Shown here: in pieces, positions 9,149-53,336 of the stretch
Position numbering within the stretch: the stretch's first letter is position 1
Layout: the number at the start of each line of letters is the position of its first letter
DNA from: Streptomyces sp. Je 1-332
GTDB lineage: Bacteria > Actinomycetota > Actinomycetes > Streptomycetales > Streptomycetaceae
DNA length: 64,000 nt
Assembly: GCF_040730185.1 (NCBI RefSeq)
Contig: NZ_CP160402.1
Location: 2,480,001-2,544,000 of the forward strand
Direction: 5' to 3'
Translations under genes and position numbers: made by a program
The notes under the pieces: generated by a model
What the model was told of the DNA's origin: nothing
Databases searched by the model: none
What the model saw: only the letters and a program-made list of their open reading frames with translations

Positions 9149-11583
9149 GTCAGGCGGCGGTCGGCGATGGAGCGGCCCACCTGAACCTCGTACGAACCGC
9201 CCTGGTGCGTCCAGGTGTTGGCGCTCTCGTCCCAGATCTCGAAGGCGCGGCGCGGGAGTTCGATCCGCACCTCCACGCTCTCGCCGGGTGCGGCCTCGGC
9301 GCCCGCGAAGCCCGCGAGCCAGCGGGCGGGGCGGGAGCCGTCGTTCGCGGTCGGGGCGAGGTAGATCTGGACGACCTCACGGCCCGCGCGCGGGCCGGAG
9401 TTGCGGACGCGGACCGTGGCCGTCGTGCCCTCAACGGTGAGGGACTCGTACGTCCAGTCGGTGTAGCCCAGGCCGTGGCCGAAGGCGTACGCGGGGGTGG
9501 CGCCGGACTTCTCCCAGGCGCGGTAGCCGATGAACACGCCCTCGTCATAGCGGAGTTCGCCTTCCTCGGGGGTGACCTGGGTGATCGGCGCGTCCGTGAA
9601 GGAGCCCCACGTCGTGGGCAGGCGTCCGCCCGGCTCCTGGGCGCCGAGCAGCACGTCGGCGAGCGCGGCGCCGCCCTCCTGCCCGGGGAACCAGCCGAGC
9701 AGCACCGCCGCCACGTCGTCGCGCCACGGAAGCTCCACCGGGGAGCCGGAGTTGACGACCACGACCGTGCGGGGGTTGGCCGCGGCCACCGCGTGCACCA
9801 GTTCGTCCTGGCGGCCCGGGAGCCGCAGGTCCTGCCGGTCGAAGCCCTCGGACTCGACGCGTTCGGTGGTGGCGACGACCACGACCGCGGTGTCGGCGCC
9901 CCGCGCCGCCTCGACGGCTTCCGCGATCAGCTCGTCGGGGTCGCGCCGCGGGCCGAGGTGCACGAAGGAGAACACCACGCCGGGCAGCGGGGCCTTGTAC
10001 TCCTTGTCGAGCGGATGGAGCAGGGAGACCTCGACCGGCTCGCCCGCCGTCAGGGTCACCTTGGCGCGCTCGACCGGGGAGCCGAAGAACGCTTCGAAGG
10101 GGTCGGACGCCTCACCCATCACCTCGGTCCCGTCGAAGACGACGTCGCCGCCGACCGTGAGCGTGAAGGCGCCGAGACCGCGCGTGCCGAAGGAGTGCTC
10201 GCCGCTCTCACGCGGCGTGAACGTACCGACGACCTCGATCGAGGCCATCGCCTCGTGGGTGACTCCTTCGGGCAGGTCGTCACCGATCCACTGGACCTGA
10301 CCGGAGGGGAGGCTGCCCTCGCCCAGGATGGTGCCGTCGGCGTCGCGGCAGACGGCGCGCAGCTCGAACCCCTTGTCGGCGGGGGCGAGTTCGTCGCTCG
10401 GGTCAGCGCCGACGGCGTACGTCAGAGACTCCTCGCTCAGCGCCGCCGTCAGGCCGTCGAGCGGGGAGATCACGCGCGGCGGGAAGACGGTGGCGGAGCC
10501 GCCGCCCAGGACACGGGCGTCGCGTGCGGCGGCGCCGATGAGGGCGACGGAGGCGGACGGCCCGAGCGGCAGGGTGTCGTTCTCGTTGCGCACGAGGACG
10601 AAGGCGCGGCGGGCGACCTCGCGGGCCAGCGCCTCGCCGTCGATCTCGGCAGGCGGATCGGTGACGACGGGCTCGGCGCCTTCGAGGACGCCGACGCGGG
10701 CGGCGAGGCGCAGGACGTTGCGGACGGCGTCGTCGACCACCGCCTCCTTGACCCGGCCACCGCGCACGGCATCGGCGAGCGCGTCGCCGTACACGGTCCG
10801 CGGCCCCGGCATGGCGACGTCGAGACCGCCCTCGATGGTGCCGGCGGTCGTGCGGGCGGCCATCCAGTCGGAGACGTTGTAGCCGTCGAAGCCCCACTCG
10901 CCGCGCAGCACCTCGTTGACCAGATAGCGGTGCTCGGTCATCGTCGAGCCGTTGACCTTGTTGTACGCGGTCATGATGCCCCAGGGGTGGGCGTTGGTGA
11001 CGATCGCCTCGAAGGGCGCGAGGTACAGCTCGCGCAGGGCTCGCGCGCTCACCTTGTTGTCGACGGTGAAACGGTCGGTCTCGGCGTCGTTCGCCACGAA
11101 GTGCTTGACGGTCGTGCCGACGCCGCCCGACTGCACGCCCTGGACGTAACCGGTGCCGATGACGCCGGTCAGATACGGGTCCTCGCTGTACGCCTCGAAG
11201 TGCCGGCCGCCCAGCGGTGAGCGGTGCAGGTTGACGGTGGGCGCGAGGAGGACGTGGACGCTCTTGCGGCGGGCCTCCTGGGCGAGGAGGGCGCCCGCGC
11301 GGCGGGCGAGGTCCTGGTCCCAGGTGGCGGCGAGCGCGGTCGGGGACGGCAGGGCGATGGAGGGGTCGTCGGCGGTCCAGCGGGTGCCGCGCACGCCGAT
11401 CGGGCCGTCCGACATGACGAGGGGCGCGAGGCCGATCTCGGGCAGCGGGTGCAGCGACCACATGTCGCGCCCGCCGAGCAGCCGGGTCTTGGCGTCCAGA
11501 TCCAGCGCGGCGAGCGCGGCCTCCACGACCTCCTCGCGCGCCTGATCGCTCCGCGTCGCTCCGGTTCCCTGGGTTCCCGCCAT
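9130..11583 (-). CDS. Beta-glucosidase, glycoside hydrolase family 3
   Basis: 817 residues. ATG 11583 follows GAGGAGG; the longer frame upstream is not supported. Domain order: GH3 N-terminal barrel with the catalytic nucleophile Asp in 'GYNVSDWMAA' and substrate-binding 'KHFVANDAE'; GH3 C-terminal domain; an inserted PA14-like domain ('VGTFTPRESGEHSFGTRGLG'); and a C-terminal fibronectin III-like domain. No signal peptide, so it acts inside the cell on imported oligosaccharides. Similar PA14-bearing GH3 enzymes hydrolyse beta-glucosides. Divergent from a TetR gene that probably controls it. Confidence 0.93.
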   Translation of the reverse strand: MAGTQGTGATRSDQAREEVVEAALAALDLDAKTRLLGGRDMWSLHPLPEIGLAPLVMSDGPIGVRGTRWTADDPSIALPSPTALAATWDQDLARRAGALLAQEARRKSVHVLLAPTVNLHRSPLGGRHFEAYSEDPYLTGVIGTGYVQGVQSGGVGTTVKHFVANDAETDRFTVDNKVSARALRELYLAPFEAIVTNAHPWGIMTAYNKVNGSTMTEHRYLVNEVLRGEWGFDGYNVSDWMAARTTAGTIEGGLDVAMPGPRTVYGDALADAVRGGRVKEAVVDDAVRNVLRLAARVGVLEGAEPVVTDPPAEIDGEALAREVARRAFVLVRNENDTLPLGPSASVALIGAAARDARVLGGGSATVFPPRVISPLDGLTAALSEESLTYAVGADPSDELAPADKGFELRAVCRDADGTILGEGSLPSGQVQWIGDDLPEGVTHEAMASIEVVGTFTPRESGEHSFGTRGLGAFTLTVGGDVVFDGTEVMGEASDPFEAFFGSPVERAKVTLTAGEPVEVSLLHPLDKEYKAPLPGVVFSFVHLGPRRDPDELIAEAVEAARGADTAVVVVATTERVESEGFDRQDLRLPGRQDELVHAVAAANPRTVVVVNSGSPVELPWRDDVAAVLLGWFPGQEGGAALADVLLGAQEPGGRLPTTWGSFTDAPITQVTPEEGELRYDEGVFIGYRAWEKSGATPAYAFGHGLGYTDWTYESLTVEGTTATVRVRNSGPRAGREVVQIYLAPTANDGSRPARWLAGFAGAEAAPGESVEVRIELPRRAFEIWDESANTWTHQGGSYEVQVGRSIADRRLTETITV

Positions 11584-12486: not shown

Positions 12487-13605
12487 ATGAGTGACGGGAT
12501 CAGTCGGGGGCGGTTTCTGGTGGGGGCGGGGGCCGTGGGCTTCGCGGCGGCGGCAGGGGGCCTGCTGACGGCGGCGCCGGCTTCCGCAACTCCCCCCGGG
12601 GCAGGCCGACTCAGGTATCGCGGCGTCTGCTACGAGGCCGTCGCGGGGGAAACGCCCTCGACCGGCTGGAGCGCTGCCCGCATGCGCGAGGACCTGTGCG
12701 TGATCGACGAGCGGCTGCACGCCACCACCGTCTCCGTGTTCGGCGACGGCGTCGAACGACTCGGCGCCACCGCGACGGAGGCCGCCGAGCGCGGGCTGCA
12801 CGTCTGGCTCCAGCCGCGCCTGGCCGACCGGCCCCAGCGGGAGATCCTCGACCACCTCGCGGAGACGGGCCGGCACGCCGAGCGGCTGCGGCGCCAGGGC
12901 GCGGCGGTCCATCTGAGTGTGGGCTGCGAGTTCGTGCTGTTCGTGCCGGGCATCGTGCCCGGCGACAGCGCGGTGGAGCGCATCGAGAACATCAGCAAGG
13001 GGAACTACGACCCCGTACTGACGCAGCGGCGCCTGAAGCGGTTCATCGGGCGGGCGGCGGCGGTCGGCAGGTCCGTCTTCCGGGGCGGGCTGACCTATGG
13101 GGCGGCGGACGGTGACGAGGTGGACTGGGACCTGTTCGACATCGTCAGCGTCAACTACTACGGCTATCACCGCAGTCGGGCCGCCTACGTACGAGATCTG
13201 GCGCCCTACCGACGCTGGGGCAAGCCGGTGGCGATCACCGAGTTCGGCTCGTGCACCTTCCGGGGCGCGCCGGAGCAGGGCGGCATGGGCTGGGACGTCG
13301 TCGACTACACGAAGTATCCGCCCGAGATCAAGGGCGGGCTCGTCCGCAGCGAGCGGACCCAGGCGGCGTACATCACCGACGTACTGGACGTCTTCGAGTC
13401 GATGGACCTCTACTCGGCGACGCTCTACAACTTCGTCAGCCCCGAGGCCCCGCACCACGCCGATCCGCGCCACGACCTCGACATGGCGAGCTACAGCATC
13501 GTGAAGACCATCCTGGACGGGCCGTCCGGCCGCTGGCACTGGGAGCCCAAGGAGGCGTTCCACGCGGTGGCCGACCACTATGGGCGCGCGGCTCGGCGTT
13601 CGTGA
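12487..13605 (+). CDS. Secreted TIM-barrel glycosidase-like protein
   Basis: 372 residues from ATG 12487, which has GGGAGG 8 nt upstream. The N-terminus looks like a Tat-type signal (SRGRFLVGAGAVGF, then AAPASA), although the arginines are not adjacent. The body reads as a (beta/alpha)8 barrel with two conserved glutamates, one in 'SVGCEFVLF' and one in 'VAITEFGSC'. These are where the acid/base and nucleophile of clan GH-A glycosidases lie. Related Streptomyces proteins are often labelled 'abortive infection protein', with no supporting evidence that I know of. Substrate unknown. Confidence 0.7.
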   Translation: MSDGISRGRFLVGAGAVGFAAAAGGLLTAAPASATPPGAGRLRYRGVCYEAVAGETPSTGWSAARMREDLCVIDERLHATTVSVFGDGVERLGATATEAAERGLHVWLQPRLADRPQREILDHLAETGRHAERLRRQGAAVHLSVGCEFVLFVPGIVPGDSAVERIENISKGNYDPVLTQRRLKRFIGRAAAVGRSVFRGGLTYGAADGDEVDWDLFDIVSVNYYGYHRSRAAYVRDLAPYRRWGKPVAITEFGSCTFRGAPEQGGMGWDVVDYTKYPPEIKGGLVRSERTQAAYITDVLDVFESMDLYSATLYNFVSPEAPHHADPRHDLDMASYSIVKTILDGPSGRWHWEPKEAFHAVADHYGRAARRS

Positions 13606-13704
13606 CCCTGCGCGCCGCCCGGGTCGCGGGAGTTCAACCGCTGGCGGGCGCCACCCTCTCGGCGCGATACTGCGGCCACCCCCACCGGCCACGGAAGGAC
13701 TCCC

Positions 13705-14979
13705 GTGTCACCTACGTCCCATGGCGCCGCCCGGCTCACCTCGCTCGGTGTCACCCTCCTGCTCTCCCTCGCCGCCGTGCCCGCGTCGGCGGCCACCGCG
13801 CCCGCCATGACCGCCGAGGAACAGCGCCTCGACCGCGCGGCCCCGCAGGAGATCCTGCGCCGCAGCGGGTTCGACGCCGTGGCACCGGAGTTCGCGCGCG
13901 CCCTCGACCGCGCCCACTCGTACGGCGAGGCCAAGCGCATCGTCGTACGCCAAGGGGACGCGCTGTGGCGGCGTGCCGTCGAGCGGGCGCAGGGGCGGGG
14001 GCACGGGGCGACGGGAGCCGGGGAGCTGAGCCGGGACGACGACCGGCCCCTGTACTGGGCCCGGCTCGGCATGACACGGGAGCTCAGGCAGTGGGAGCCG
14101 GGCCGCTTCGGGGTGAGCGAGGCCCAGCACGGGCGCCTGATACGGGCGTTGGAGGATGCCTCTCGCGGGCACGACTCCATCCGCTACCCGAAGGAGGACC
14201 GCGCGGGCCACCGCCTCAAGCGCGTCCTCGTCACCGGCTTCGACCCCTTCACGCTCGACCGGGACGTCCGCATCAGCAACCCGTCGGGGGCGACGGCCCT
14301 CGCGCTCGACGGCACCGTCATCCAGACCGCCGAAGGTCCCGCCCGCGTGGAGACCGTCGTCTTCCCGGTCCGCTGGGACGACTTCGCGGAGGGGACGGTC
14401 GAGCGCACCCTGCGCTCCCAGCTCCCCCGCGTCGACCTCTTCACCACCATCAGCCAGGGCCGCGCGGGACGCTTCGACATCGAGCGGACCAACGGGGCCT
14501 GGCGTGGCGGCTTCCCCGACAACGAGAACCTCTCGCGTACGGAGACGGTGCCGGTCACCGATCCGGCCACGCAGCCCCAGTGGACGTCCACGACCCTCCC
14601 GTACCAGGAGATCGTGAGCGCGGAAACCGGCCGCTTCCCGGTGTACGACAACACCTCGGTGACCGAGATCCCGGCGGGCCAGACCGCTCCCGTGGTCCGT
14701 CCCGACGGGCCCACGGCCGGTTCGACGGCCCGCGAGGGCGGCGGCGGCAACTACCTGTCGAACGAGATCGCCTACCGGGCGACGCTCCTTCGCGACCGCC
14801 TCGGGCTGCACGACCGGCTGCCCGGCGGCCATGTGCACACGCCGATCCTGCAGTTCGGCGCGGGCAACACGGACCCGGCGACGGGCGAGATCACCGACCC
14901 CGAGTTCGTGCGCAACCGGCTCGACATCATCGCTCAGGTGCGCGAGATCCTGACGACGGCTATGAACGCCCGCCGGTAG
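13705..14979 (+). CDS. Secreted pyroglutamyl-peptidase-like protein (Cys to Ser)
   Basis: 424 residues, with a signal peptide (hydrophobic stretch, AVPASAAT) and a roughly 130-residue helical N-terminal region. A peptidase family C15-like domain follows from 'LKRVLVTGFDPF' (about 172). The C15 triad Glu-Cys-His can be mapped: Glu260 in 'RFDIERTNG', His376 or 378 in 'GGHVHTP'. The catalytic Cys position in 'GGNYLSNEIAYR' is Ser352. Normal C15 enzymes are about 215 residues, cytoplasmic and Cys-dependent. This secreted form may be a serine variant or a non-catalytic binder. Confidence 0.75.
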   Translation: MSPTSHGAARLTSLGVTLLLSLAAVPASAATAPAMTAEEQRLDRAAPQEILRRSGFDAVAPEFARALDRAHSYGEAKRIVVRQGDALWRRAVERAQGRGHGATGAGELSRDDDRPLYWARLGMTRELRQWEPGRFGVSEAQHGRLIRALEDASRGHDSIRYPKEDRAGHRLKRVLVTGFDPFTLDRDVRISNPSGATALALDGTVIQTAEGPARVETVVFPVRWDDFAEGTVERTLRSQLPRVDLFTTISQGRAGRFDIERTNGAWRGGFPDNENLSRTETVPVTDPATQPQWTSTTLPYQEIVSAETGRFPVYDNTSVTEIPAGQTAPVVRPDGPTAGSTAREGGGGNYLSNEIAYRATLLRDRLGLHDRLPGGHVHTPILQFGAGNTDPATGEITDPEFVRNRLDIIAQVREILTTAMNARR

Positions 14980-49155: not shown

Positions 49156-49650
49156 GTGCCCCTGCTGCCCCGGATCGCGCGGCTGAAGCTCCTGCCGCGC
49201 TTCGGCCTTGCACGGCGGCCAGTGACGGCCGCATGCCCAGGCAGTTCGCCCCTCGGGCCGGCAGGGACCGACAGGCGGTCACCTACGCGTCACCTCATTG
49301 GGAGCACCCAGGAGGTTTGCACTGTCGACGCAGGTCGTTCCTGCGCCCCAGCGCTGCGGGGGGGGCGGGTGGGACTCGAACCTGTCCCAGTGACGCGTGA
49401 CTCTCCGATGTCGAGTATTGCTTGGGCCACGCGGGCCAGGGATTCGCGGAGTACGTCATCCGGGACGACGCCCAAGGCTTCCTGTGCTCCCCGTTGGGCT
49501 TACCAGGTCAGCTCACGAGCCTCTCCCGCATGGCTACGGCAAGTACGGAGGCCGTGTTGGCGCAGCAGTCGATCACTGCGCGACCTGCCAGAGTCTCCAA
49601 CTCTGCGCAGGGGGCCTTTCGCCATGCCCGGGTCGGCGTAGCGTGGCCGC
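49156..49650. other. Intergenic DNA containing the left end of a decayed integrated element
   Basis: 495 bp. It includes ordinary chromosomal DNA to 49310, then the left direct repeat 49311-49382, then element DNA. Between 49383 and 49650 there are only short open frames, none with a ribosome binding site; I see no gene here. A small frame on the minus strand at 49290-49475 begins 'MGVVPDDVLRESLARVAQA' and could be a gene remnant. Confidence 0.6.
49311..49382. repeat. Left attachment-site-like repeat (attL)
   Basis: 72 bp matching 52705-52780 with a few substitutions, a 5-bp deletion and one extra G. The right part, GGGCGGGTGGGACTCGAACC (49363-49382), equals the T-arm and 3' acceptor strand of the CAU tRNA, but the rest of the tRNA is missing. 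The order (flank-core-element-core-tRNA) is what tRNA-directed integration produces. Confidence 0.75.
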
Positions 49651-50862
49651 GTGGCAAACGAAGACCTGGGACGTACCCTCCGCCGCCTGCGGCGCCTGGC
49701 CTCCCTGACCCAAGAGGAGTTGGCCGAGCGCTCCGACGTGTCCGTAGACGTGATCCGGCAGCTTGAGCAGCGACGCAAGCATTCGGCTCGCCTGCCCACA
49801 CTTCACGCTCTGGCGAACGGTCTGGGCGTGGAGTTGACGACCCTGCTGGGGGACCCTCCTGCGGCCTCGACGGGAGAGAACGACGGGCCGCAGTTCGTGG
49901 CGGTACGGCGGGCCGTCATGCCCGCGCTCTGGGTGGCCGCGCCACAGCCGCCTGGGCCCGACTTCTCTCTGCCCGACCTGCGCGAGCAGATCGCGGACGG
50001 CTGGACCCAGTACCACTCCGCCGAGTTCGACACCGTGATGAAGGCACTGCCCGACCTGATTTCGGAAGCGCGCGCCGCCGCGGCATCGCCCGACAGCGTG
50101 GATCAGGGCGCCGGCTTCGCCGCGCTGGGCAAGTCCCTCCAGCTGGCCGGGCACGTAGCCGTGCGGATGGGGAAAACCGATCTCGCTCTGATCAGCCTGG
50201 AGCGCGCCATAGACGCAGCGGGCCGTTCGTCCGATCCTCTGCTGCGCGCCATGATCGTCAACTCTGTCGCGTGGACCTATCAGCGGCAGGGCCGTCTCGC
50301 CGACGCCCTGAGCATCGCCCTGCACGCGGCTGGCGACATCGAGGACAACGGGCATACGGGCACCGCCGACGGCCTGAAGGTCTGGGGCGCTCTCACCATG
50401 TCCGCCGCCACCTCAGCCGCTCGCAGCAACGACTATGAGCGGGCTGCTGCGTTGATGGAACGCGCAGAGAAGGAGGCAGCTCATGTGGCCAAGCTGCCGC
50501 AGGGCAGCGACAGTCGCATGGTCAGCGTGTTCAGTCCGTCGTCGGTGCGTATCGAGCGCGTCCGCCTGGCCGTCCAGTACGGGCACCCCGAGGAGGCCCT
50601 GGCCCTGGCGAAGGGGATGCGGCTGACCAAGGACACCCCGCCGTCGTGGCGAACGTGGCTACTGCTGGATGTGGCCCGCGCTCACACAGACCTTGGGGAC
50701 GCGGCGGGAGCGGTGAAGGCTTTGGAGTCGCTGCGCCGCGTGGCGCCGACGTGGATGCAGCATCACACCCTGGCGGTCGCCATCGTCCGTGATCTGTGGG
50801 TGCTCCCCAACCACCCGGCAGGGCTGCGCCCGTTGGCGGAATTCCTGGGGGTCGGCGAATAG
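49651..50862 (+). CDS. XRE-family regulator with TPR-like domain
   Basis: 403 residues from GTG 49651. The N-terminal helix-turn-helix ('LGRTLRRLRRLASLTQEELA', then 'RSDVSVDVIRQLEQRRKH', about 6-50) is of the Cro/CI type. Downstream helical repeats ('RQGRLADALSIALHAAGDIE', 'EALALAKGMRLTKD') resemble a TPR ligand or peptide-binding region. Proteins of this build are common as regulators in actinomycete integrative elements and near cryptic clusters. It is the largest gene of the decayed element. Confidence 0.85.
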   Translation: MANEDLGRTLRRLRRLASLTQEELAERSDVSVDVIRQLEQRRKHSARLPTLHALANGLGVELTTLLGDPPAASTGENDGPQFVAVRRAVMPALWVAAPQPPGPDFSLPDLREQIADGWTQYHSAEFDTVMKALPDLISEARAAAASPDSVDQGAGFAALGKSLQLAGHVAVRMGKTDLALISLERAIDAAGRSSDPLLRAMIVNSVAWTYQRQGRLADALSIALHAAGDIEDNGHTGTADGLKVWGALTMSAATSAARSNDYERAAALMERAEKEAAHVAKLPQGSDSRMVSVFSPSSVRIERVRLAVQYGHPEEALALAKGMRLTKDTPPSWRTWLLLDVARAHTDLGDAAGAVKALESLRRVAPTWMQHHTLAVAIVRDLWVLPNHPAGLRPLAEFLGVGE

Positions 50863-50983
50863 CGTCGCGAAACTAGGACGCCACATCACTGTCACCCTGT
50901 GTAGCGATCCGATTCCATGAGTCGTACAGCGCCCCGGCAACCGCGTGAACGGTCCCGGGGCCGGCCGACCACCAGGAGTCGAC

Positions 50984-51346
50984 ATGGCCGACAGTACGGG
51001 CCCAGCGTCCGCCGCGAGAAGCGGATCGACCAACACACTCGAAGCGCCGCCCATCCAAGTCCCAAGCCCTGGAAGCCTGTCCGAGCAGCAGGTGCGCGGT
51101 AGGGCGTGCGTGTGGTGTGCCGTCGCCCTGAGTAACGCCGCGGCCGTGGATCTCGGCGTGCGGGAGGCCGAAACGCACGGTTCGTGTGCCCGCTGGTTCC
51201 CCCGCTCCTGCTGCCCCTGTGCCGTCATCGCCGCGCACAAGGCGCTCCTCGACCACACCGAGAACTGCCTGCAGTGCTACGACAACCCCGCCCGCTGCAC
51301 CGGCGGGCAGGCCTTGCGGCAGACGCTGAAGGAGACACGGCGATGA
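50984..51346 (+). CDS. Cysteine-rich hypothetical protein
   Basis: 120 residues from ATG 50984 (AGGAG 5 nt upstream; an earlier GTG at 50945 lacks this). Four CxxC-like pairs ('ACVWCAVAL', 'SCARWFPRSCCPCAVI', 'NCLQCYDNPARCTGG') suggest zinc binding. Such genes sit beside XRE/TPR regulators in many Streptomyces, so the two probably function together. It overlaps the next gene by 4 bp. Confidence 0.7.
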   Translation: MADSTGPASAARSGSTNTLEAPPIQVPSPGSLSEQQVRGRACVWCAVALSNAAAVDLGVREAETHGSCARWFPRSCCPCAVIAAHKALLDHTENCLQCYDNPARCTGGQALRQTLKETRR

Positions 51347-51504
51347 GCGAGGGCCCACGGTACTGCGGGCACTGCGACGAGCCGATCACCGAAGGCCAGA
51401 AGTTCCGGACCTTCGCCAAGGTCTCCATCTCGGCCGGCGGCATCACGATCCGCGTGCACGAAGCCTGCGCGGAACGCCCGACATTCGTCCGGCGCCGCCC
51501 CTAG
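51343..51504 (+). CDS. Small zinc-ribbon-like protein
   Basis: 53 residues: MSEGPRYCGHCDEPITEGQK begins with a CxxC pair, and a later Cys (HEACAER) could complete a metal site with His. ATG 51343 overlaps the stop of the Cys-rich gene (ATGA) and is preceded by GAAGGAG. It forms a coupled pair with that gene. Function unknown; it may be a DNA-binding or adaptor element. Confidence 0.65.
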   Translation: MSEGPRYCGHCDEPITEGQKFRTFAKVSISAGGITIRVHEACAERPTFVRRRP

Positions 51505-51509
51505 ACCCC

Positions 51510-51801
51510 TTGCCGTGGCCAGTCGGACAGCCCCACGGCGCTGCCTGGTTCACCGACCCGCCCCGGCTCTTCCCTCTCGTCCGGGAGCGTCTGGCTCCGG
51601 GGGGCGTCTTCGTGTTCTCACAGCCGCCTGCCATCCCGGGCGCCTACGGCCCGCATGGCATGTACAAGGGCGGGTTCGCGGGGAAAGCCATGTTCACCTA
51701 CCGCTACAGCTACAAGCCCGCGGTATGGGAGCGGCATCTCCTCCGGGCCGGCTTCGCTGCTGTCGAGTCGGCAGTGATCGAGGCGCCGAATGCGGCCGCC
51801 A
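51510..51801 (+). pseudogene. Fragment of a SAM-dependent methyltransferase
   Basis: The frame reads 'FTDPPRLFPLVRERLAPGGV', 'FVFSQPPAIPGAYGPHGMYK' and 'YKPAVWERHLLRAGFAAVES', the C-terminal half of a class I methyltransferase. The SAM-binding N-terminal half is missing: this frame begins 6 bp after the zinc-ribbon gene's stop. The last family-like residues are near 51795, where the sequence runs into the toxin gene on the other strand. Probably truncated at both ends during element decay. Confidence 0.7.
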
Positions 51802-51805
51802 GCAG

Positions 51806-52213
51806 TCAGGCGCGTACGTCCCGCTGCTGCACTTCCTTGAGGACCGACGCCACCGTGGCGAAGTCGTTGTCCACGTGGAGCACCGTGTGGCCGTGATGAA
51901 CCGCGGTGGCACACACCAGAAGATCGATGGGCCCGGCGGCCCGGTGCTGTCCCTGCTGGGTGAGCTTGTACTGCGCGGTATCGACCCAGCGCCACGCGTT
52001 CTTGGGAACCGGCGAGAGATGGCAGAGAGCATCCAGCTCTTCGGCCAACTCATCCCGGTGGGCCGGGCTGGTGGCCGAGTAGAGGAACTCTGCCCTCGTG
52101 GGCTCGCAGATATGGAAGACGCCTGCGGCGATGTGCCCTTCCCAGGGCCTCAACGCCCCCGGCGTGCGGAAGAGGTGCCACAGGGCGGAAGCATCAAGGA
52201 GGTACGTGATCAC
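51806..52213 (-). CDS. PIN-domain ribonuclease toxin (VapC family)
   Basis: 135 residues from GTG 52213, overlapping the antitoxin stop (GTGA). The PIN acidic residues are present: Asp7 in 'YLLDASALW', Glu42 in 'EPTRAEFLY', Asp97 in 'GPIDLLVCA' and Asp115/Asp117 in 'HVDNDFATVA'. VapC toxins cleave tRNA or rRNA. The toxin with its antitoxin forms a complete type II pair in the decayed element, which may explain why the DNA is retained. Confidence 0.88.
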   Translation of the reverse strand: MITYLLDASALWHLFRTPGALRPWEGHIAAGVFHICEPTRAEFLYSATSPAHRDELAEELDALCHLSPVPKNAWRWVDTAQYKLTQQGQHRAAGPIDLLVCATAVHHGHTVLHVDNDFATVASVLKEVQQRDVRA

Positions 52214-52443
52214 TCGAAGGCTGCCTGCCGGGCGCGCTTGGCAGCTGCATGCGCCGCAGCCGCCGCCTCGAACTCGCCCCGCTCACCCCGCGCGGCCAGC
52301 TTCTCGGCAGCCTCCAGCCGCTTGATGCGCGCCACGTAGTCCCGCAGAGCTCCGTTGACCGTCTCTTTTTTCGTGGAGGTACCCATGAGCCGCATCGCCT
52401 CGGCCAGCGCCTCGTCATCGAGATCGACCTGAGTAACCGACAT
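52210..52443 (-). CDS. VapB-type antitoxin
   Basis: 77 residues from ATG 52443 (AGGGG about 10 nt upstream). The N-terminal ribbon-helix-helix-like part 'MSVTQVDLDDEALAEAMRLM' and 'TVNGALRDYVARIKRLEAAE' resemble the DUF2191/VapB antitoxin, followed by an Ala-rich helical tail that should wrap the toxin. Upstream of and coupled to the toxin gene, as is normal for type II systems with autoregulation. Confidence 0.85.
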   Translation of the reverse strand: MSVTQVDLDDEALAEAMRLMGTSTKKETVNGALRDYVARIKRLEAAEKLAARGERGEFEAAAAAHAAAKRARQAAFE

Positions 52444-52755
52444 ACCAGCCACCCCTCACCGAGAGTACGTGATGTACATAACCACGATACGTCACCAACA
52501 TTCCTGTGCGGAGTCCATCACGCACGAGGCAGACGCAACCCGCCCGCCGACGCGGATGTCTCGGTGCAGGTGAACCCCTTGCTGGAGGGCGCATACTCGA
52601 CGAGACGTAGCAAGACGTGTGTTCGCCTCACCGATGCGAGGCCCTCGCTACCCCCGGATTCCGGGCCTGACGCCACCCGCACGTCACTTCAAAGGGAAGG
52701 ACGGGGAGGTTTGCACTGTTGACGCAGGTGGAATCGTTCCTGCGCCCCAGCGCTG
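52444..52755. other. vapBC promoter region and right end of the element
   Basis: 312 bp without a gene. 52460-52500 is AT-rich for this genome and holds repeated TACGTGA/TACGTCA and GTACAT sequences, a probable VapBC autoregulation site. The right direct repeat occupies 52705-52780, running into the tRNA. No open frame has support. Confidence 0.6.
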
Positions 52756-52780
52756 TGGTGGGGCGGGTGGGACTCGAACC
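52705..52780. repeat. Right attachment-site-like repeat (attR) at the tRNA 3' end
   Basis: 76 bp matching 49311-49382. It starts 51 bp before the 3' end of the tRNA (CCA at 52756-52758) and extends to the T-arm of the tRNA. Together with the left copy it bounds a 3.3-kb insertion (49383-52704). The intact tRNA is on this side. Confidence 0.75.
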
Positions 52781-52832
52781 CACGGCCGACGGATTATGAG
52801 TCCGCTGCTCTAACCGGCTGAGCTACCGCCCC
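52756..52832 (-). tRNA. tRNA with CAU anticodon (Ile2 or elongator Met)
   Basis: 77 nt including encoded CCA. Acceptor stem GGGGCGG (52832-52826) pairs with CCGCCCC (52760-52766). D-arm AGCTCAGCCGGTTAGAGC, anticodon loop CTCATAA with CAU, and T-loop TTCGAGTCC are normal. A CAU tRNA that is not initiator (no C1-A72 mismatch) is either Ile2, read after lysidine modification, or elongator Met; I cannot decide between these by eye. A decayed integrated element sits at its 3' end. Confidence 0.92.
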
Positions 52833-53000: not shown

Positions 53001-53007
53001 CTCACAG

Positions 53008-53080
53008 CTCTCCCGACTGGACTCGAACCAGTAACCTGCCGGTTAACAGCCGGCTGCTCTGCCAATTGAGCTACAGGAGA
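53008..53080 (-). tRNA. tRNA-Asn (GTT)
   Basis: 73 nt without encoded CCA. Acceptor TCTCCTG pairs with CGGGAGA (one U-G pair); discriminator G73. Anticodon loop CTGTTAA with GTT; T-loop TTCGAGTC. Second in a tandem pair read from the minus strand. It is nearly identical to the copy at 53086-53158 except in the acceptor stem. Confidence 0.95.
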
Positions 53081-53085
53081 CCGAG

Positions 53086-53158
53086 CTCCCCCGACTGGAC
53101 TCGAACCAGTAACCTGCCGGTTAACAGCCGGCTGCTCTGCCAATTGAGCTACAGGGGA
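53086..53158 (-). tRNA. tRNA-Asn (GTT)
   Basis: 73 nt without encoded CCA. Acceptor TCCCCTG pairs with CGGGGGA; discriminator G73. Anticodon GTT. First of two tandem copies, 5 bp apart, probably from one transcript ending at the 52966-53000 terminator. Its promoter lies in 53159-53336; TAATGT on the minus strand near 53229 is a possible -10. Confidence 0.95.
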
Positions 53159-53336
53159 TCGTCTCGTTGCATCGAACGCAGCTACCTGGGAACTCTCCAG
53201 GCGGCGGGCGGTCGCTGCGACACATACATTAGCGCAAGCAGGGGGGTGCTCCGCCAATCGGTATCCCCCACCGCCGACGCAGAGCAGCAGACGGGCGACA
53301 GACGCTCGACGCCGACGCAAGGGAAGGGTGGCAGCC

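Follow-up and report, generated by a model that had tools for sequence, protein, structure and literature searches.

A probable remnant of a tRNA-directed integrative element in Streptomyces retains a phage-related HTH-TPR regulator

Cis-mobilizable elements (CIMEs) and decayed remnants of actinomycete integrative and conjugative elements (AICEs) have been documented between direct repeats in Streptomyces, and mobilisation of such remnants in cis after accretion was proposed in that work (Choufa et al. 2022, PMC9513070). AICEs are described as targeting the 3' end of tRNA genes by means of a tyrosine integrase, and one Frankia AICE sits in tRNA-Met (Ghinet et al. 2011, PMC3218068). Here we report an insert of ~3.3 kb (49383-52673) beside a CAU tRNA gene of Streptomyces sp. 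Je 1-332, located in a 64,000-nt stretch of contig NZ_CP160402.1 (positions 2,480,001 to 2,544,000), hereafter the window, to which plain coordinates refer. The insert, whose conserved gene encodes a helix-turn-helix (HTH) protein with tetratricopeptide repeats (TPR), is probably the remnant of a tRNA-directed integrative element resembling CIMEs and decayed AICEs, as a first-pass annotation of the sequence had proposed.

The presumed integration target is an intact tRNA of 77 nt with anticodon CAU, of Met or Ile2 isotype (ARAGORN; 52756-52832, minus strand). The last 24 nt of this tRNA and ~80 bp of flank form the tRNA-proximal, attL-like repeat (52674-52780, minus strand; alignment and BLAST). 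A distal, attR-like repeat on the same strand (49280-49382) again comprises the 24 nt of the tRNA 3' end, followed by flank with a 5-bp deletion. The two repeats lie in the same orientation and are identical in 87 of 108 alignment columns, with 6 gap columns; their tRNA portions agree at 23 of 24 positions in the alignment (BLAST: 25 nt at 96%), which confirms that the left copy is tRNA sequence. When the left repeat was searched against the window's own genome (a single 8.27-Mb contig of 8,274,399 bases), only two places emerged at E ≤ 0.001, namely itself and the tRNA copy (E 3.3e-21). Alignment and whole-genome search thus establish the direct repeat pair around the insert, and the 5-bp deletion and extra G read earlier from the sequence both appear in the alignment. 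The length initially given (72/76 bp) has to be revised to ~105 bp, and the shared tRNA part is not the 3' half: only 24-25 of 77 nt, from T-loop to CCA, are held in common, the bulk of each repeat being downstream flank.

Both copies are predicted to fold. Directly 3' of the tRNA and within the repeat lies a terminator-like hairpin lacking a U run (52713-52753, minus strand; 60-nt RNA fold, -23.8 kcal/mol, z -3.2), and the distal copy holds its counterpart (49319-49354, minus strand; 60-nt RNA fold, -28.9 kcal/mol, z -2.5). Folded in the sense of the tRNA transcript, the 5-bp deletion shortens the loop of the distal hairpin and leaves the stem unaffected.

If an element integrated here, a relative lacking it should show a single core next to the tRNA. 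The closest relative found, genome G139 (98% over 52705-52832, that is, tRNA and flank; xylB protein 97%), follows the window as far as 49189 and again from 52676 onward. Between these points it has 618 bp, with a single core, an intact tRNA and no insert; this one relative therefore shows the predicted arrangement, at a site that is near-empty rather than empty (~600 bp of other DNA). The insert genes were likewise absent near this tRNA from 24 of 24 further genomes of the genus, for which 17-20 kb beside the tRNA was fetched in 23 and < 3 kb in G017, so that the 3.3 kb is not, as the opposite expectation would have it, common to all relatives. Two faint similarities were noted: a weak 26% HTH match in G012, inside that genome's own element at the tRNA, and a 79-bp DNA match (73%, E 0.001) to 50926-51001 in G097, whose flank is also similar and which has no HTH gene within 7.2 kb. 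A histidine kinase (HK) gene of the left-flank type lies 1.1 kb from the tRNA in G139, 3.9 kb in the window, 6.8 kb in G016, 9.8 kb in G021 and 18.8 kb in G011, distances that compare presumed, not established, orthologs, as the HK genes of the last three are only 60-70% identical. G139 carries a cassette of the window's kind elsewhere, an HTH gene followed by two genes for Cys-rich proteins (G139:C5:33366-35116; loci L124 and L173), in a variable locus with no tRNA, ~34 kb from the near-empty site.

The surroundings of the CAU tRNA across these genomes mark it as an integration hot spot. Five of the 24 (G006, G010, G012, G014 and G023) have a tyrosine integrase no more than 2 kb away from it, and partial copies of its 3' end occur, among others, at distances of 6.4 kb (G013), 13.8 kb (G012) and 84.6 kb (G014). 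A search for full elements with this core, recommended in the first-pass annotation, accordingly returned bracketed elements, such as the 13.8-kb unit of G012, which is enclosed by tRNA-3'-end copies and whose tyrosine integrase gene adjoins the tRNA; this unit also encodes a Prim-Pol, an AAA protein and an AbiU-type protein. With the repeats established, the near-empty site in G139, the absence from the 24 genomes and the hot spot together uphold the initial reading of a decayed integrative element at the tRNA 3' end.

Set against described systems, the locus has the features of a CIME or decayed element: att-like repeats, one of which rebuilds the tRNA 3' end, a single core in a relative, and no integration or transfer genes found. 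It shares with the Streptomyces remnants cargo between direct repeats, empty sites in some strains and a hot spot. Those remnants retain truncated integrases (PMC9513070), whereas none was detected in the window; unlike them, the window has repeats that include tRNA flank and hairpin, and its retained gene recurs at other tRNAs. With AICEs (PMC3218068) it shares the targeted tRNA 3' end, and an AICE-like element (G012) occupies the very same tRNA; the insert, however, has no detected integrase, replication or transfer gene and hence does not qualify as an AICE. The Dehalococcoides ssrA islands (PMC3146451) resemble it in having RNA-gene 3'-end borders, an inferred T-loop insertion and, in some islands, no integration genes; unlike the window, they involve a serine recombinase and target the transfer-messenger RNA gene. 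That the insert is without an integrase, as noted at the outset, agrees with two scans: an integrase hidden Markov model (HMM) found none at E < 1e-3 across the 64-kb window, being built from 121 integrases of mainly one subfamily so that others may escape it, and Pfam found no integrase, replication protein or FtsK-type transfer gene among the insert's scanned open reading frames (ORFs).

We picture the origin of the insert as follows. The att site of an element, consisting of a tRNA 3' end and a terminator-like hairpin, would have recombined site-specifically into the 3' end of the CAU tRNA. The incoming end would have supplied a new tRNA 3' end and hairpin, which would have kept the tRNA intact, and the copy pushed aside would be the one now decaying 3.4 kb away. 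Integrase, replication and transfer genes would since have been lost, or never have been there. The regulator would have been kept by selection, leaving as cargo the HTH-TPR gene with its operator-like site, two Cys-rich genes, a methyltransferase fragment and VapBC, the last of which may stabilise the piece against loss. The repeats, together with the near-empty site, speak for this first integration step; a tyrosine-recombinase mechanism, loss of int, regulatory control and present-day mobilisation by the integrase of another element are what we infer beyond it.

To place the regulator in its family, we considered 93 loci, comprising the window, 52 from a homolog search and 40 fetched from a list of 54 places that spans 53 of 392 genomes, the remaining places being the window's own and 13 more. 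They reduce to 76 with distinct HTH DNA: 61 at ≥ 78% identity, window included, and 15 of a sister subfamily at 64-68%. The homolog matches at least 380 aa in one piece at 55 of the 61 subfamily loci, and the median ratio of nonsynonymous to synonymous polymorphism (pN/pS) against 43 homologs is 0.18 (0.13-0.23). A tRNA 3' end faces the HTH gene within 1.5 kb at 16 of 60 non-window loci as compared to 0 of 15 sisters (Fisher p 0.03), the tRNAs being His, Val, Lys(ctt), Lys(ttt, beside a gene fragment), Pro(ggg), Arg(acg) and Arg(cct), with CAU in the window besides. Among 26 loci with any tRNA in their stretch, the nearest intact one points its 3' end at the HTH gene in 24; at 32 of the 61 the fetched stretch contains neither a tRNA nor a piece of one. 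Repeats of a tRNA 3' end enclose six of the loci, making units of ~2-5 kb: the window, L062, L066 and L067 (Pro), L070 (Lys) and L085 (Arg). In five of these six pairs a hairpin lies just 3' of the tRNA part in both copies (z -2.1 to -7.9); L070 is the exception, with no such hairpin in its far copy. Nine tRNA fragments outside the window, from three unrelated tRNA kinds, have their first nucleotide at tRNA positions 29-39 and extend as far as the 3' end or close to it. Fragments of the tRNA-Arg 3' end lie 595 bp (L074) and 658 bp (L086) from the HTH gene at loci without an intact tRNA, and 1.0 kb (L093) and 7.0 kb (L102) away at two more.

Integrases are scarce around these genes. The HMM matched at one of the 76 loci (L093), and a Pfam scan of HTH neighbours (38 of 61 listed ORFs, from 16 loci) gave no integrase among the 25 families listed of 41. 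An ORF fragment past the second repeat of L067 was looked at as a possible integrase and had no Pfam match. In a quick HTH tree with many weak branches, explaining the 8 tRNA kinds seen over 20 rows takes at least 9 changes of kind, the minimum possible being 7; the supported clade of eight rows to which the window belongs also includes loci beside His, Val and Arg(cct) tRNAs and loci without a tRNA. Several other repeats were not counted as brackets: those of L074 and L138, the second tRNA-Lys copies of L064 and L065, each a full tRNA gene with flanks of its own, and a 155-bp, 81% repeat around the HTH cassette of L141 (L141:7594-7747 and 9927-10076) in which no tRNA sequence was detected. 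No clean example of an empty tRNA-Lys site emerged when one was looked for. The repeat of L085 (L085:9351-9717 and 13383-13752) joins a tRNA-Arg 3' end to the start of a Nudix gene, and looks like the product of two tandem islands sharing a left end.

Several observations sit uneasily with a simple integration event. The 618 bp of G139 contain a short ORF that the window lacks, presumably DUF385/nitroreductase-like, so that G139 offers an imperfect empty site. A standard integration event carries the native flank away to the far repeat; G139's flank is closer to the right repeat (70 of 83 columns) than to the left (62 of 84), which runs counter to that expectation. Selection on the tRNA-adjacent hairpin is a possible cause of a conserved near and a decayed far flank. 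The window also shares only 24-25 nt of tRNA, where 8 of 9 comparable fragments have 42-47 nt, and neither an integrase nor a recognisable remnant of one, as far as an HMM of mainly one subfamily reaches, shows which enzyme acted.

These features invite other accounts. One that we regard as possible, if rather doubtful, takes the HTH-TPR islands for a specialised, integrase-less mobile cassette of regulator, operator and variable cargo that has tRNA ends as its borders and relies on a resident tRNA-specific integrase for movement in trans; the window would then hold one such unit, decayed and with extra cargo. The orientation of tRNAs toward the HTH gene (16 of 60 loci against none of the sisters; 24 of 26 nearest tRNAs), the seven tRNA kinds besides CAU, the six bracketed units, the tRNA-Arg fragments of L074 and L086 and the single integrase match in 76 loci would all suit it. 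On the other hand, more than half of the subfamily loci (32 of 61) have no tRNA sequence in the fetched stretch, nine changes of tRNA kind against a minimum of seven do not force frequent jumping, and no excised circle or precise empty site has been demonstrated at the other loci, nor would an HMM of mainly one subfamily reveal every integrase. Selective keeping of a useful gene from many AICEs would, moreover, look much alike.

Could the repeat have arisen with no integrase, through segmental duplication or homologous recombination of a DNA circle with a piece of the tRNA locus? We consider this unlikely. The ~80 bp of flank within the window's repeat, the 262-bp and 371-bp repeats of L066 and L085 and the resemblance of the shared flank to that of G139 speak for such an origin; yet duplications would end randomly, whereas the nine non-window fragments end inside the tRNA at positions 29-39 in three unrelated kinds, and the six bracketed loci keep an intact tRNA on one side only. 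Very improbable, in our view, is an ancestral insert that was removed from G139 and others when one repeat recombined with the other. The single core of G139 is what a precise loss would leave, and the divergence of the HTH protein between G139 and the window's genome (89% identity) is near that of the flank proteins (HK 88%, YtxH 93%, xylB 97%). The HTH cassette of G139, however, sits in another locus ~34 kb off, and the insert is found at this site in 0 of the 24 other genomes.

An operator-like palindrome marks the stop codon of the regulator gene. The form GGGACG-NNN-CGTCCC followed by TGT occurs there, with one mismatch allowed, at 48 of 55 loci of the window's group, or at 51 of 55 when a variant half-site is included, and at 15 of 15 sisters; these are counts without a shuffle control, to which common descent contributes. 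The window's copy is degenerate (50875-50889, plus strand). The palindrome also stands at the stop codon in phages phiHau3 and Andris, whose protein is 64-65% identical. Its short form, GGACG-NNN-CGTCC, is found a single time in each phage sequence surrounding the regulator (19 kb of phiHau3, 11 kb of Andris), and a further 25 kb of phiHau3 contains none (~5.6 kb uninspected); in the window it has one unrelated match, at 13515, and the longer form has no exact match in the window's genome. With a single palindrome per phage stretch, an immunity repressor acting on many operators is unlikely, and a local switch fits better from the distribution of sites than a multi-operator immunity system. 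One operator-like site suggests that the regulator would control the next gene only. That gene varies: within 3.5 kb after the HTH gene, a HATPase_c_2-type protein is encoded at 40 of 61 loci (1 of 15 sisters), a homolog of the window's Cys-rich proteins at 9 (one on the other strand), a DUF6415-like protein at 2, a methyltransferase at 2 and none of the listed kinds at 10, in a tally that counts L104 and the window twice each. Between operator and cargo gene, a GC-rich inverted repeat (50931-50961, plus strand), seen by eye upstream of the next gene here and in many homologous loci, is a possible attenuator.

The regulator belongs to PHROG 5823 (phrog_5823; E 7e-106), and homologs occur in one plasmid record and in 44 phage records, of which five lie at 60-80% identity. 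Homology to the phage proteins extends over the full length (257 of 403 residues identical in phiHau3 gp52, 261 of 403 in Andris gp51), and they share the same stop-codon palindrome. In these Arquatrovirinae phages the regulator lies beside the serine integrase gene (Andris) or two ORFs from it (phiHau3) and not at a tRNA, in contrast to the window; phiHau3 also has a separately annotated putative repressor, gp31. Ten proteins encoded by its neighbours in phiHau3 had no match (E 1e-5) at any of the 61 subfamily loci, and one of the 15 sisters matched one of them, which argues from gene content that the HTH loci are not simply prophage remains of phiHau3 type. The predicted structure shows an HTH followed by a TPR superhelix (mean predicted local distance difference test score 81). 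This architecture is that of RRNPP/arbitrium-type receptors (PlcR, NprR, Rap, AimR), although the fold is common. Fold matches include Rap, NprR and PlcR and equally non-receptor TPR proteins, AimR is absent from the 50 listed, and PADLOC gives HTH-level matches only; a peptide-sensing role is thus only a suggestion.

Considered by itself, the insert is a relic of an ordinary sort. That one regulator recurs at several tRNAs with tRNA ends as borders, an operator-like site in a fixed place downstream and cargo that varies suggests a reusable cassette that outlives its carrier elements, and a limited search of open-access literature found no description of such a recurring arrangement. The cassette would offer a marker gene for small islands overlooked by element finders that depend on integrases, and it ties a phage regulator family to chromosomal islands. 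A wider idea, which we put forward as speculation and think improbable as a whole, is that Streptomyces and temperate phages share a mobile decision module, in which an HTH-TPR sensor would switch a swappable effector through one stop-codon operator. This module would spread among tRNA genes as integrase-less units with tRNA 3' ends and hairpins as borders, borrowing resident integrases, and its TPR domain would perhaps read a peptide or phage signal in an arbitrium-like manner.

Within the insert, the HTH-TPR gene (49651-50862, plus strand) encodes 403 aa with Pfam HTH_31/HTH_3 and weak TPR matches. Past the operator follow, on the same strand, Cys-rich protein A (50984-51346; start chosen within ORF 50945-51346), the position of which varies in the family, and Cys-rich protein B (51343-51504; start chosen within ORF 51184-51504), also present in L073. 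Neither matched in the Pfam scan, and the "zinc" once ascribed to these small proteins is unsupported; the other contents named earlier—regulator, methyltransferase fragment and toxin-antitoxin pair—were all recovered. The methyltransferase fragment (51537-51797, plus strand; ~87 aa) has no Pfam match of its own and is 85% identical to a 282-aa relative in L071. On the minus strand lie genes for a VapC-type PIN toxin (51806-52213; PF01850, 2e-12) and a VapB-type antitoxin (52210-52452; PF09957, 8e-17).

Other units at this tRNA show features of their own. In G012, the AbiU-type protein (L056:5968-7743; PADLOC E 1.6e-172; Pfam AIPR) is cargo adjoining the far repeat, and the integrase ORF (L056:17966-19486) runs antisense through the flank and ends inside the tRNA, so that its last residues would differ between the integrated and excised states. 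This ORF raised the idea that the flank repeat is integrase coding sequence, which was dropped since the matching tail in G014 lies in a frame other than that of int. Predicted folds of the flank vary among the 24 relatives (no shuffle comparison). G013 harbours a 6.4-kb unit at the same CAU tRNA (L048:13019-19425) with 47-nt 3'-end brackets, near-identical flanks and a 1128-aa ORF; the integrase HMM had no match in it, making it another integrase-less unit at this tRNA. G011 carries five copies of the tRNA 3' end, 46-54 nt long, on a contig other than that of the tRNA (G011:C2 425977 and 523305-551790), four of them ~9-10 kb apart and possibly a tandem element array. Behind the window's CAU tRNA stand two nearly identical tRNA-Asn(GTT) genes in tandem (53006-53161).

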